39,769 nucleotides of DNA from an uncultured Lentisphaerota bacterium (GTDB lineage Bacteria > Verrucomicrobiota > Lentisphaeria > Oligosphaerales > CAITYL01). The stretch is from contig CAITSE010000132.1 in the NCBI GenBank assembly GCA_903894975.1, positions 1 to 39,769 of the forward strand. The letters run 5' to 3'. Position numbers and translations under genes: made by a program. Below, piece after piece: positions 3,468 to 33,528 of the stretch. The first letter of the stretch is position 1, and each line of letters opens with the position of its first letter. The notes under the pieces are model-generated. The model worked only from the letters and a program-made list of their open reading frames with translations. It ran no database searches and was not told the origin of the DNA.

Positions 3468-5519
3468 ATGCAAACCCTCAGGACTCTCAAGCCCCGGCGA
3501 CTGATCTTGGCGCTAGTTCTGGCGCTGGCCGCCGCCACGCCGGCATGGTCCGCCCCGACCACCATCGCGTGGGCCGCAACCGGCACGAATTTCGAGACCG
3601 GCGGCAACTGGGTTGGCAACGTCACCCCCACCAGCGACCTGACCAGCAACGTGGTGACCTTCACCGGGGCGACGGGGATGGTCCAGCCGTCGCTCACCCA
3701 GGACCGCAGCGTCGCCGGACTGTATATCTACAACCCGGCGACAACCATGCCAGTGTTTTTGAGCGGATCCGGCGTCACGCTCTCCCTCGGCGCTTCTGGT
3801 ATCACCCAGCAGTCTCCGAGCACCGGCAGTTCCTACACCAACACCATTTACGCCAACATCAATGTGGCAACCACACAGAGCTGGTATATCAACAATGTCC
3901 TTTCCCTCCGCGGGGTCCTCAGCGGCACCAGCGCCCTGTCTCTGACCCGTTACACCTTGGAGTTGGCCGGCACCACCGCCAACTCCTACAACGGGCTGGT
4001 GACACTCAACAACAGCAACGCCCGGCTTTATCTCAACAAGACCCCCGGGCAGCCGGCCTTGTCCGGCGACATCAAAGTGACCACCGGCCAGGTAACCTGG
4101 CGGGCCAGCAACCAACTCACCAGCACGGCGAATGTCACCATGCTGGCGGGCACCTTGAACTTGTATGATTCCGTCCTGGGCACCACCGGCATCGGCGCCG
4201 AAACCTTCAACTCCCTGACCATGGCGGGCGGCGCGGTCTACACGGACGGCGGCACGGGGGTGGGCGGAACCACCAGCGGCCTGATCACCACCCAGACCAC
4301 GACGGTGACCGGCGGCGTACTCAACGTCAATGGCGGCACGCAGTGGACCATGAACAGTCTGTCCATCTCCAACAGCGGCAGGATCAACCGTACCGGTACG
4401 GCTTATGGAACCAGCAGTTCGTCGCGCATCTTAACCGTCGGCGCCGGCGGGCTCGCGATCACCAACCAGGCGACCGGGTCCTATGCCCCGATCATGGTGG
4501 GCAACAGTCTTGCCAACAAAGCCACCAACAAGCTGGTTCTCCAAGGGGATGTGACGTTCACCGGCTACGCCGGCAACGCCAACGCCGCCTACATCAGCAC
4601 GGACACGGTGAACCCGGCCAACCCGGTCAAGGGCACGATTGAGCTCAACGGCACCCGCACCTTCACCATCCACGACGGCGACGCCGCCGTGGATTTCCGC
4701 ATCGACCCCGCCATCAACGACAACGGCGCCACGGTCGGCGCGCTGACCAAGGCCGGACTCGGCACCCTGGCCCTGACCGCCTCCAACGGCTATACCGGCG
4801 GCACCCTGGTCAGCGCCGGCACGCTCAAGGCCGGCAGCGCCAACGCCTTCGGCGGCGGCGGCATCACGGTCGGCGGCGGCGTGCTCGACCTGCGCGACTT
4901 CAACGTCGGCAATGTCATCACCATCACCGGCACGAACAGCTCGGTGCTGCTGCAGAAAACCGCCGGCGCGCTGACCTCGAACTTCGCCGCCGGCAGCAAC
5001 CTCCACGGCTGGCAGCGCGAAGCCGTGGGCACCGCCATCGGCGCCACCACCGCCAGCCTCCTTTCGGGCACGGCCTCCGGCGCCGTGACCTCGTCCTGGA
5101 CCAACAACGCTCATAGCGACACTCATGTGGTCACGGACGTCCTCGACCTGGCCGGCACGGGCGCGGGCAACCTGTTCGTCCTGCAGATGAGCTATGCCGA
5201 CGACGCCTACAACGACGCCAACGCCACGCTCAAATACTGGAACGGCAGCCAGTGGGTGAACGCCATTTACGGCGGCAGCTTTGGCGGCGCCGAAGGCTCT
5301 CCGATCCTGGGCGCCTACGACAACAACCTGGCCTTGGGCAACTGGGGCCGGGACACCGTCAGCAACACGGCGTGGGCCGTGGTGGACCACAACAGCGAGT
5401 TCGCCGTGGTGGTGCCCGAGCCTGCCGCACTCTCCCTGCTCGCCCTCGGCGGCCTGGCCCTCCTGCGCCGCCGGCGGGAGACGGCGGGACCGTGTGGCGG
5501 TGTGACAGTGGAACGGTAA
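3468..5519 (+). CDS. PEP-CTERM protein with autotransporter-type beta-strand repeats
   Basis: A 683-residue exported protein. It begins with a signal peptide (basic LKPRRL, a hydrophobic run, cleavage near PAWSA). The middle is low-complexity Gly/Thr/Asn/Ser sequence predicted to form a beta-helix. Near residues 424-475 it contains the autotransporter-associated strand motif ([17 protein letters not shown]). The C-terminus carries the sorting signal VVPEPAAL (about 647-655), then a hydrophobic segment and an RRRR stop, as in PEP-CTERM proteins processed by exosortase. AGGAGAAG precedes the ATG. There is no autotransporter barrel, so attachment is likely through the PEP-CTERM route. It probably acts on the cell surface or in extracellular matrix. 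Its place between the LacI-type gene and polysaccharide enzymes suggests a role in substrate contact, which is inference. Confidence 0.85.
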
Positions 5520-5617
5520 GTCGGCAGAGCAAAACCAGGGACCGCCGGGCACCGGCCCGGCGTGTCCTTCCGAAAGTTCAAGACGAACCGCGCACGCCAG
5601 GAAGCGGATCTCTCCCG

Positions 5618-6319
5618 ATGGAACTGAAGCAGAACCCGTTCTATACTATCTACGGGGCCCCGCAGCGGAAAACTTGGATGCTGAACGCCAAGTCCAAATT
5701 CACTCTCATCGAGCTGCTGGTGGTGATCACGATCATCGCCATTCTGGCCAGCATGCTGCTGCCCGCCCTCCAGCACGCCAAGGAAAACGCCAAACGCGCC
5801 AAGTGCATGAGCAATCTCCGGCAGATCGGCGTGGGCTACAACGTCTACATGAACGACTGGGACGGCAAAACCTGGGCTCAGGACGCCGCCGGCGGCGCCA
5901 GCATGCTGCGCCGGTCCGGCACCTTCATCGGCAGCGGCCTGATGTTGCAGCACGGATACCTGGCCACCGGGGATCTCTTCCAGTGCCCGTCCGCGCCCAA
6001 GGCCGTCGTGGCCGCTTCCGACCAGTACGTCCATGCCGAAATCAACAGTTCTCCGGCCGATTGGGGAAGCGATGCCTTCCAGCGGATCAGCAATTATTAC
6101 TACGGCCCCCTGTACGGCAACCAGGACGGAGCGAAAGGCGTGGAAATCGACAATCCCCGCAGCATCCGGCCGGGGCGTCCCTATCACGGCGCGGGGCATT
6201 TCAACGCCCTCTACCTCGACACCCATGTGCAGGGGCTCACCAACGTGCCCACGCTCGACGGCTCCCCCGCCTCCGGAGTCGTCAGGCAGTGGTTCACCGA
6301 CTACGTGGACGGCAAATAG
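5618..6319 (+). CDS. Prepilin-like protein with N-terminal methylation motif (1 of 3)
   Basis: About 233 residues. The type IV prepilin-like leader ends KSKF, followed by [20 protein letters not shown], a membrane helix with the conserved Glu at +5. A globular domain follows, with the family's C-terminal signature in degenerate form ([16 protein letters not shown], where DG is replaced by DT). Start choice is open: ATG 5618 has AGGAAG rather far upstream, and ATG 5678 gives the short leader MLNAKSK. Residue -1 is Lys instead of the usual Gly. Hundreds of such paralogues are known in Lentisphaerota and Planctomycetota genomes, and their function is poorly known. It follows the PEP-CTERM gene by about 100 bases and precedes the lyase gene, so the three may be co-transcribed. 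Confidence 0.85.
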
Positions 6320-29738: not shown

Positions 29739-30395
29739 TCACCATCCCTGCATGTCGTGCCACCAGGTGGTGTTCGTCACCAGCATCTTCTCCGCCGAAC
29801 CGTGCCCGTCCACCCACTGGAAATTGCCGGTGAGGCCAGGATGCCGGTAATCCGCGGTGCGGTTGGCCCAGGTGCTAGCCCAGTTCTGGGACGAGGAAAA
29901 CAGTTTGCCGTCATAAAGTTCGATACTTTGCGTCGGCGCCTGGATCATCTGAAGATTGATGTCCCACCAGAAACTCGCGCCATGCGCGTTGCTGTGGTTG
30001 TCGTCCAGGTTGGAGTTCATTGTCATGTTGGTTCGGCTGAGGTTGCTGACGTCGAAGCCGCTGACCAGCGGACAGAGCAGGGCGAAGGTGGCGGGGTTCT
30101 GCGAATCCGCCGGCAGATAGCCGCCGCTGACAATGTACGAAGGCCAGGACATGTACGGCGCAAAGCCGTTGTTGTCCTCGGCGTAATTCGACAGGGCCAT
30201 CCAGGTCTGGCGCAGATTGCTGCCGCAGGCGCCCTGCTTCGCCTTCAGCTTGGCCACATTCAACGCCGGCAGCAACATTGACGCCAGAATAGCGATAATG
30301 GTGATGACCACCAGCAGTTCGATCAGGGTGAACAACGACGGCTGCCGGAGCCGGACTCCGGAACTTGGATCGGTCTTGTCTTGGAGTGATGACAT
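29739..30395 (-). CDS. Prepilin-like protein with N-terminal methylation motif (2 of 3)
   Basis: A 218-residue protein with a 21-residue leader ending in SL, then [21 protein letters not shown] globular domain follows, with the His/Asp-Gly signature near the C-terminus ([20 protein letters not shown], ten residues between His and Asp-Gly). I start at ATG 30395, which has GGAGAG upstream. The in-frame GTG at 30431 overlaps the promoter. The -1 residue is Leu, not Gly, so processing by a standard prepilin peptidase is uncertain. It is a single-gene transcript bounded by its own promoter (30422-30450) and terminator (29668-29695). It may be a surface-exposed pseudopilin; no type II secretion or type IV pilus machinery gene is nearby. 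Confidence 0.88.
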
Positions 30396-30421
30396 CACGG
30401 CAGGGCTCTCCACGTCCTTAT

Positions 30422-30450
30422 ACTTTATCACTCGTAGTGACTCGTGTCAA
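30422..30450 (-). promoter_or_regulatory. Promoter with embedded operator-like palindrome for the pilin-like gene
   Basis: On the - strand, TTGACA (30450-30445) and TAAAGT (30427-30422) are 17 bp apart. The spacer holds the inverted repeat TCACT-CGT-AGTGA (30428-30440) and a direct repeat of ACTCGT (30430 and 30440). A repressor bound here would block the polymerase, so regulated expression of the pilin-like gene is likely. The palindrome differs from the LacI-type sites at 1043 and 2260. Confidence 0.65.
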
Positions 30451-30668: not shown

Positions 30669-30723
30669 TTTGCAATTTTGTGTTCTATGTGGCAAGTCGT
30701 TACCTTTTCGAAAGGCCCGGCTC

Positions 30724-31701
30724 GTGACTTCCTCCTCCGCCTCTCCCCGCCTCGTCGCCATGGGCCTGAACCCGGCATGGCAGAAGACTTTGGTATTTAA
30801 TCAGTTGCGCGTTGGCGAAGTCAATCGCGCCCGCCTGGTCGAAACCCAGGCCAGCGGCAAGGGGATCAATTTCGCGGCCGCGGCGCGGCAGGCCGGTGGC
30901 CACGCCACGGTCGTCCAGTTTGCCGGCGGCGTCACCGGCGATTGGCTCACCGCCGACCTGGACCGGCGCGGGCTGCCGCACGCCACGGTGTGTTCGGCGG
31001 GCGCGACCCGGATCTGCAGCACGGTGTTGTCCGAAGCGGACGGAGTCACCACGGAACTCATCGAACCCTCGGCGGCGGTCAGTGCCGGCGAACTGGCGGA
31101 ACTGCGCGGGCGTCTCTTCGGCCTGCTGCTGGGTGCGGCCGGCCTGGGGCTTTGCGGCACGGTTCCGCCCGGTGTGCCCGCCTCATTCTATGCCGAGGCC
31201 GTAGCCGCGGCCGAGGCTGCCGGCTGCCTGGTGCTTCTGGACGCCTACCGCGAGATCGAAACTGTCCTGCGCGCCGGGCCGGACCTGCTCAAGATCAACA
31301 CCGCGGAACTGACCGCTCTCACTGGCACGGCGGAACCAGCCGCCGCGGCGCGGCTCTGTCTGGAACAGTTCCCGATTCGCGCCCTGGCCATCACCGCCGG
31401 GCCGGCCGCCGCCTTCCTGTTCACCCGCGGCCACGGCTGGCAGTTCACGCTGCCGCGTCTGGAACACGTGTTGAATCCTATCGGCGCCGGCGATACTGCT
31501 GCGGGCGTCCTGCTCTGGCAGCTCGCGGCGGAACGGGCCGGCGGCGAGGATGTGTGGAAGGAGGGCAGCGAGGTTCTGCCTGACGCCTTTCGTCGCGCCC
31601 TGGCCTGCGCTTGCGCCTCCTGCCTGACCCGTGAGCCCGCCGCGTTCAGCCTGGAAACCGCCCTGGACTTGGTCCCGGCCATTACCGTCAGCTGCCTCTA
31701 G
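30724..31701 (+). CDS. PfkB-family sugar kinase (1-phosphofructokinase/tagatose-6-phosphate kinase type)
   Basis: A 325-residue ribokinase-superfamily kinase phosphorylating a sugar phosphate with ATP. It shows the opening GLNPAWQKT, which corresponds to the TLNPALD segment of 1-phosphofructokinases, then ASGKGINFAAAARQAG, and the signature NPIGAGDTAAG with the catalytic base Asp257. I take GTG 30724 as start, because the conserved strand before GLNP needs residues upstream of the ATG at 30760 and because GAAAGG lies at a fitting distance. It is followed, after an inverted repeat, by a TrpF-like gene on the same strand. Fructose 1-phosphate or tagatose 6-phosphate is the most likely substrate; the exact one cannot be told. 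Confidence 0.85.
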   Translation: MTSSSASPRLVAMGLNPAWQKTLVFNQLRVGEVNRARLVETQASGKGINFAAAARQAGGHATVVQFAGGVTGDWLTADLDRRGLPHATVCSAGATRICSTVLSEADGVTTELIEPSAAVSAGELAELRGRLFGLLLGAAGLGLCGTVPPGVPASFYAEAVAAAEAAGCLVLLDAYREIETVLRAGPDLLKINTAELTALTGTAEPAAAARLCLEQFPIRALAITAGPAAAFLFTRGHGWQFTLPRLEHVLNPIGAGDTAAGVLLWQLAAERAGGEDVWKEGSEVLPDAFRRALACACASCLTREPAAFSLETALDLVPAITVSCL

Positions 31702-31772: not shown

Positions 31773-31884
31773 TATTCGCGTTCATTGGCGTTCATTAGCG
31801 GTTAAAATATAAAATGTTATATAATTATGAAACGAAACCTGCTCTATTTTTTGAACCGCTAATAAACGCGAATGAACGCGAATA
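31773..31884. repeat. Inverted repeat element (31-bp arms) between the kinase and TrpF-like genes
   Basis: Arms 31773-31803 and 31854-31884 match at 29 of 31 positions as reverse complements, around a 50-bp AT-rich loop. Each arm has CGCGTTCATT-type units repeated within it (TTCGCGTTCATT, GGCGTTCATT). The AT-rich loop contains TATAAT near 31820, so the element could bring a promoter to the TrpF-like gene. The rest of the gap 31702-31982 shows nothing else. Confidence 0.85.
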
Positions 31885-31982
31885 GTATCCTGGTTTGATT
31901 TTTAATTAGCGGACAAATCGGTTCATGAATAATCCAAGCGATGTGTTCTATGTGTTCTTTGTGGCAAAAACGAGAAGGTTCC

Positions 31983-32693
31983 ATGAGTCCCAAACCTGTC
32001 ATTCCTGCGGCGCCGTGGATCCAGGTGGCCGGTGTCCGTGATTGCGCCGAGGCGGAGATGCTGCTCGCCGAAGGGGTGCAGTGGCTTGGCTTTCCGCTGC
32101 GCCTGGCCTATCATGCGCCGGACCTGACGGAGGCGGCGGCCGCCCGTGTCATCCGCGCCCTGCCGGCCGCGGCCGTGCCGGTTCTGATCACGTATTTAAT
32201 TTCGGCGGATGAGGTTGCGGAGTTTGCGGATGATCTCGGCGTCCGCGCCGTTCAACTGCACGGCGAGATTCCGGCCGCGGAATTCGCGCGGCTGCGCCGG
32301 TTGCGGCCGGAGCTATTTCTGATCAAGAGCCTGGTCGTCCGCGGTCATGATCCCGAACCGCTGCTGGCCGCCGCCGCGGCCTTTGTCCCGGACGCCGATG
32401 CCTTTCTCACCGACACTTTCGACCTCGTCACCGGCGCTTGCGGCGCCACCGGCCGCACCCATGACTGGCCCGTGAGCCGGCGCCTGGCGGAATGCCTGCC
32501 GAAGCCGCTTATTCTGGCCGGCGGTTTGACCCCGGAAAACGTGGCCGCGGCCGTGGCCGCCGTGCAGCCGGCGGGCATCGATACCCACACCGGTGTCGAA
32601 GATCCCGCCGGCGCCAAGTTCCCGGCGCTCGTCCGCGCCTTCGTCGCCGCCGCTCGCGCCGCGTTCCTCCGGGAAAAAAACCACCCACGGTAA
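31983..32693 (+). CDS. TrpF-like (phosphoribosylanthranilate isomerase family) protein without catalytic cysteine
   Basis: A 236-residue TIM-barrel protein with family motifs AVQLHGE, FLTDTFD (Asp144 aligning with the catalytic Asp), GGLTPENVAAAV and GIDTHTGVED. In normal TrpF the first strand is KICGIT with the general-base Cys. Here it is QVAGVRD with Ala16 in that place. The substrate-binding SPR segment is also replaced (GFPLRLAYHAPD). Thus the isomerase step of tryptophan synthesis is unlikely, or is performed differently. GAGAAGG five bases before ATG 31983 decides the start. No other trp gene is present. The upstream neighbour is a PfkB kinase, so a sugar-phosphate isomerase role is conceivable. 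An alternative is a true but diverged TrpF. Confidence 0.72.
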   Translation: MSPKPVIPAAPWIQVAGVRDCAEAEMLLAEGVQWLGFPLRLAYHAPDLTEAAAARVIRALPAAAVPVLITYLISADEVAEFADDLGVRAVQLHGEIPAAEFARLRRLRPELFLIKSLVVRGHDPEPLLAAAAAFVPDADAFLTDTFDLVTGACGATGRTHDWPVSRRLAECLPKPLILAGGLTPENVAAAVAAVQPAGIDTHTGVEDPAGAKFPALVRAFVAAARAAFLREKNHPR

Positions 32694-32868: not shown

Positions 32869-33528
32869 ATGAACACCCCTCTTCGCATACGATGGCAAGC
32901 CGGTTTCACCCTGATCGAGCTGCTGGTGGTCATTACCATTGTCGCCGTGCTGGCGTCCCTCCTGCTGCCGGCGTTGAAAACGGCCCGTGACACCGCCAAG
33001 ACCGTCAAGTGCCTTGGCAATGAAAACCAGATTGGGATCCTCTGCATCCAGTACGCCGGCGACAACGACGGATTCCTGCCTCCCGTCAACCTTAGCTATC
33101 CGGCCTGGCCTTCCGGAATCAACTGGCCTTATGACCAGAGCGTGTGGATGGTCTGGTTGGCAAAACTTTACACGGATGCGCCCTTTAACGGCTATTGTCA
33201 TGACGAGGTTAACAGCCGCAAGACCGTGTTCCATTGTCCCTCGCATATATGTAGTGGATCAGGTGCGACGTGGGAGGGGGACAATTACGCGCTCAATCCC
33301 GCGGTGGCAATCAATGTGGCCAAAATCAGCGCGCCCGGGAAAACCAGGCTGGTGGGGGAGTACAATGGCATCACCCTTGATAGCAATGCACCTTATCCCC
33401 TTTACCGCCCCGACAGTTACCTCCGGATGCGGCATGCAGGGCGGAAGACCGACCTTCTCTACTGCGATGGACACGCCGCCAGCCTTAACGAAAACGACTA
33501 CTACCTGACCACCCTGCACTTCCCGTAA
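32869..33528 (+). CDS. Prepilin-like protein with N-terminal methylation motif (3 of 3)
   Basis: A 219-residue protein and the only one of the three with the canonical Gly at -1: leader MNTPLRIRWQAG, then [20 protein letters not shown]. The globular domain has a Cys pair region (FHCPSHIC) and the C-terminal His/Asp-Gly signature (RHAGRKTDLLYCDGHAASL). No good ribosome site is visible before ATG 32869. It ends 16 bases from the stop of the convergent queE. Solitary pseudopilins of this kind are typical of Lentisphaerota; function unknown, probably surface-located. Confidence 0.87.
   Translation: MNTPLRIRWQAGFTLIELLVVITIVAVLASLLLPALKTARDTAKTVKCLGNENQIGILCIQYAGDNDGFLPPVNLSYPAWPSGINWPYDQSVWMVWLAKLYTDAPFNGYCHDEVNSRKTVFHCPSHICSGSGATWEGDNYALNPAVAINVAKISAPGKTRLVGEYNGITLDSNAPYPLYRPDSYLRMRHAGRKTDLLYCDGHAASLNENDYYLTTLHFP

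Follow-up and report, generated by a model that had tools for sequence, protein, structure and literature searches.

Whether a protein with the barrel of phosphoribosylanthranilate isomerase (PRAI, TrpF) and an alanine at the place of the catalytic cysteine still serves tryptophan synthesis, or has taken on another function, is the question raised by a gene in the 39,769-nt stretch of DNA analysed here (the window), from an uncultured Lentisphaerota bacterium. The gene and the informative codons of its active site are:

31983..32693, forward strand: TrpF-fold paralog of the clade here called QVAG, 236 aa; an in-frame ATG at 31941 is a possible alternative start
32022..32030, forward strand: codons Q14-V15-A16, site of the canonical Lys5-Ile6-Cys7; the catalytic Cys is Ala
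32118..32123, forward strand: codons P46-D47, site of the canonical Arg36-Tyr37; the clade has Glu, Asp or Pro in place of the Arg, and the Asp that follows hardly varies
32412..32414, forward strand: codon D144, the catalytic Asp, kept (Asp126 of the T. maritima PRAI), 100% in all groups
32586..32594, forward strand: codons H202-T203-G204, where strand 8 ends at the phosphate site; a clade-invariant His replaces Ser180

The window protein was assigned to the TrpF/PRAI barrel by its match to the Pfam PRAI family (PF00697; 67 bits, cut-off 22.7) and by its closest solved folds, and it missed the NCBIfam TrpF equivalog cut-off (best 104 bits vs 215). An AlphaFold model, for which 36 clade members were used and the three plasmid members left out, reached a pLDDT of 92.5, and the solved folds closest to it were stand-alone PRAIs (TM by target 0.81-0.92), followed by ribulose-phosphate 3-epimerases. 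Alignment to the T. maritima PRAI (Lys5=Q14, Cys7=A16, Arg36=P46, His83=H93, Asp126=D144) bore out the motifs read in the initial annotation, namely QVAGV replacing KICGI, the absence of SPR, QLHGE, GGLTPENV, DTHTGVE and the catalytic Asp (in LTDT), as well as its central claim that the catalytic Cys had become Ala, a change found throughout the clade.

In canonical TrpFs, Lys5, Cys7, Arg36, His83 and Asp126 were each 100% conserved. In the QVAG clade, 98% of the sequences had Ala at Cys7 and Gln at Lys5, the other 2% being one truncated sequence (the only exception to the QVAG label is L121, truncated by a contig end and missing its N-terminus), while the equivalents of His83 (H93) and Asp126 (D144) were kept in 100%. 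The phosphate-binding loops (GGL, D-x-H-T-G) are also kept in the window protein. Besides these, the clade has invariant residues of its own (Q14, Y71, H160, S165 and H202, with D47 in 92%), to which S116 can be added as new and invariant or nearly so, and most of them, to judge from aligned strand positions, would lie at C-terminal strand ends or in the loops that follow, that is, on the catalytic face. In substrate-bound TrpF, R36 forms a salt bridge with E184 (PMC9088769). The equivalent of E184 (E206) is invariant in the clade but its partner is mostly acidic or Pro, so that an anthranilate-like acid appears unlikely as the QVAG ligand. The gene is under purifying selection, with dN/dS (omega) values of 0.05-0.27 in seven pairs, and since the substitutions recur clade-wide, chance or decay can be ruled out as their origin.

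About 45 QVAG sequences were found, in several phyla, and relatives share 42-66% identity. One set of 61 genomes yielded 14 carriers, the window's own genome among them. The phylum to which G321 belongs (this MAG is labelled Chlorobiota) had carriers in 19/346 genomes, and that of G324 (labelled Binatia) in 6/247; two Methylococcales MAGs also have the gene, as do plasmids from Streptomyces, Agrobacterium and Corynebacterium. The family is rare in the phylum that includes the Methylococcaceae genome G322, with the centre genome as its only carrier (1/399), and no relatives were found in the viral contigs searched. A maximum-likelihood tree of 104 sequences placed every canonical TrpF, including those of E. 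coli and T. maritima, in one clade (100/100), with the QVAG clade and two other TrpF-like groups on the opposite side. The Cys-less form thus does not cluster inside proven TrpFs, an outcome that the initial annotation would have taken as a refutation of its reading, and belongs to a separate superclade. Literature searches on TrpF-like paralogs and on Cys7/Asp126 returned nothing direct.

Is the gene nevertheless the tryptophan enzyme of its host? The window's genome (4.46 Mb, 89% complete) has one other gene of the PRAI family, on contig C360, which encodes KICGI, TPR and QLHG and lies directly downstream of TrpC. The possibility that the window gene is the only TrpF of a prototroph, the other refuting outcome given in the initial annotation, was accordingly rejected, and with this canonical copy beside TrpC the window gene is a paralog rather than the tryptophan enzyme. 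None of the window ORFs read was a trp gene, in agreement with the initial annotation. High-scoring canonical TrpFs were also present in 30/38 QVAG genomes (G1050 gave one ambiguous partial match when QVAG genomes were checked for canonical TrpF and IGPS). IGPS (TrpC) was found in 0/8 of the QVAG genomes in which canonical TrpF is not evident, and in 3/3 positives. These eight hence appear to lack TrpC too, indicating that the gene is not coupled to tryptophan synthesis; drafts can miss genes, but the absences all point one way.

In the neighbourhood of the gene, two features lie immediately upstream:

30670..31701, forward strand: PfkB-family kinase (1-PFK/hexose kinase subfamily), a neighbour in the window only, not a conserved pair
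31773..31884, no strand assigned: palindromic repeat with 35-nt arms and a 42-nt spacer, between the PfkB and TrpF-like genes

The upstream sugar-phosphate kinase on the same strand that had been noticed at the outset is a real PfkB ORF, separated from the TrpF-like gene by 239-281 bp, but the linkage proposed from it is confined to this genome. A PfkB ortholog was present in 30/31 genomes searched, relatives carried it elsewhere irrespective of the presence of the TrpF-like gene, and in the ten relatives besides the window's genome that have both genes it was always on another contig. As the palindromic repeat between the two genes also argues against an operon, a PfkB operon was rejected. 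The arms of this repeat (CGCTAATGAACGCGAATGAACGCGAA type) had 110 matches in the window's genome and the reversed control pattern had 0; it belongs to a REP/MITE-like family. Pseudopilin-like genes with a methylation motif are scattered in the window (29739-30431, 32869-33528 and 5252-6319).

No operon common to the whole clade was detected among the loci compared, and those from the G321 phylum, the Methylococcales and the Binatia showed no conserved operon beyond close relatives. Six relatives have an AP_endonuc_2 sugar isomerase-like gene upstream on the same strand (13 and 51 bp away in the two measured), a link confined to the window's own order. On plasmids of Streptomyces lavendulae, Agrobacterium vitis and Corynebacterium aurimucosum, the QVAG gene stands beside that of a uracil phosphoribosyltransferase (UPRT, upp), in clusters that also hold PsuG, a tautomerase and a BpsA/IndC-like NRPS. 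In these clusters (L055, L056 and L057) the tautomerase is a stand-alone 4-oxalocrotonate tautomerase-like protein and the NRPS is of the indigoidine type, two of them include an alkene reductase, and by eye the PRPP and uracil-site motifs are intact in their UPRTs; the product is possibly C-nucleoside-like. The plasmid members, three in all, group in one subclade (99/95), which looks like a single recruitment. No PsuG, NRPS or UPRT gene was seen among the window ORFs read, and PsuG is absent from the window's genome. Its absence from all 37 non-plasmid QVAG genomes searched (37/37) led us to reject a general link to pseudouridine or C-nucleoside metabolism and points to the role in the clusters as a local recruitment.

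The safest statement is that QVAG is a neofunctionalised TrpF-fold family. The initial annotation was right about the TrpF barrel and very likely right in giving the window protein another function, in view of the canonical TrpF beside TrpC and the separate clade; the sugar-phosphate isomerase role that it suggested is a possibility. Our preferred reading, held tentatively and at a little under even chances, is that a TrpF paralog has left tryptophan synthesis to become an enzyme family of its own, with isomerase-like activity on a 5-phosphorylated sugar or adduct. Its substrate would be a small 5-phosphorylated sugar or sugar adduct without an anthranilate-like acid, held by the GGL and D-x-H-T-G loops; D144 would act as the general acid, and the clade-specific H202, Y71 or H93 may take the place of Cys7 as the base. 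The reaction would most likely be an aldose-ketose (Amadori-type) isomerisation or a related enolisation, and in one lineage the gene would have been recruited beside the UPRT gene into C-nucleoside/indigoidine-type clusters. We rate the claim of a new family well above the specific chemistry. The changed residues could equally be compatible with an epimerase, a lyase or a hydrolase.

Other phosphosugar chemistry, by an epimerase or an aldolase/lyase similar to ribulose-phosphate 3-epimerase and possibly with a metal at the extra His, Asp or Glu residues, is the rival that we take most seriously, although we consider it unlikely. Ribulose-phosphate 3-epimerase was the next fold after PRAI, the clade has three invariant His and several acidic residues besides having lost Arg36, and in some relatives the gene adjoins one for a sugar isomerase-like barrel, for a transaldolase or for PfkB. 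Those neighbours differ between lineages, however, the metal site is only putative and the sequence is far closer to TrpF. An action on ribosyl nucleotides or C-nucleoside 5'-phosphates, in tailoring, damage control or self-protection, seems less probable again: it would account for the three plasmid genes beside upp, and fits the UPRT that serves as self-resistance enzyme in the minimycin cluster (PMC8724604) and the trpF hit noted in 2026 close to the showdomycin cluster (PMC13055916; only a possible QVAG member), but the single plasmid subclade and the 37 PsuG-less genomes speak against extending it to the family.

The loss of the catalytic Cys and the lack of a conserved operon could also befit a pseudoenzyme, a dead TrpF retained as a binding or regulatory protein. 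This is improbable, as 100% of the clade retains the catalytic Asp and His, and its new catalytic-face residues do not vary across several phyla. Least probable of all, and only barely credible to us, is that the protein is still a phosphoribosylanthranilate isomerase using another base; the fold, the phosphate loops and the equivalents of Asp126 and His83 would allow it, but both Arg36 and Cys7 are lost, the window's genome has its canonical TrpF, and the clade is present where TrpC was not found.

Putting these strands together, we incline slightly towards regarding QVAG as an undescribed family with a new phosphosugar reaction, which arose from the TrpF barrel by replacement of the Cys, occurs in several phyla under the annotation TrpF, and was drawn a single time into C-nucleoside-type clusters. 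Since its members carry the TrpF annotation in public records, automatic pathway calls would credit their genomes with a tryptophan step that the protein very likely does not perform. The presence of the gene in C-nucleoside-type clusters offers a handle for finding the substrate.

Compared with TrpF/PRAI (EC 5.3.1.24; T. maritima 1NSJ/1LBM), the window protein shares the barrel, the GGL and D-x-x-[ST]-G loops, Asp126, His83 and E184, and differs in the changes Cys7 to Ala and Lys5 to Gln, the loss of Arg36, the replacement of SS by HT in the phosphate strand, extra residues in the loop after Asp126, its separate clade and the lack of trp linkage. The two R36-less groups (KICG...VGQxHxSxDFI and KICCI...MPSGPG) fall with QVAG in the same superclade apart from canonical TrpF (100/100) and likewise have lost Arg36 and lengthened the loop after the catalytic Asp; unlike QVAG, they keep Cys7, nearly always have Lys or Arg at E184, and carry other residues at the H202 site. 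Together with QVAG they make up a natural series for the functional change of the TrpF barrel. The former group (KICGI; L063-L079 and others, in the window's phylum) has VGQxHxSxDFI replacing SPR and Lys/Arg at E184, and a type III pantothenate kinase-like gene adjoins its gene at two loci (L137, L138). The KICCI/MPSGPG group (L083, L085, L101, L102 and L122-L132) has no His83 equivalent (Val or Cys instead), and one of its members sometimes shares a genome with a QVAG member. A further TrpF-like form, with VQIYS or VQIYG (Gln and Tyr at Lys5 and Cys7), was seen at L189:7519-8241 and L190:1456-2139; by eye, one of these lies beside a glucose-6-phosphate isomerase-like gene and the other near a class II aldolase-like gene.

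Within the QVAG clade itself, orf20 of the black-pigment cluster of C. aurimucosum pET44827, listed as a PRAI homolog in 2010 (PMC2830990), belongs to an NRPS/PsuG/UPRT cluster, unlike the window copy. Lastly, PriA, SubTrpF2 and AdeK (PMC13055916) resemble QVAG as phosphoribosyl isomerase barrels repurposed outside their own pathway, but they are of the HisA-type PriA family, with two catalytic Asp, and constitute a separate family.
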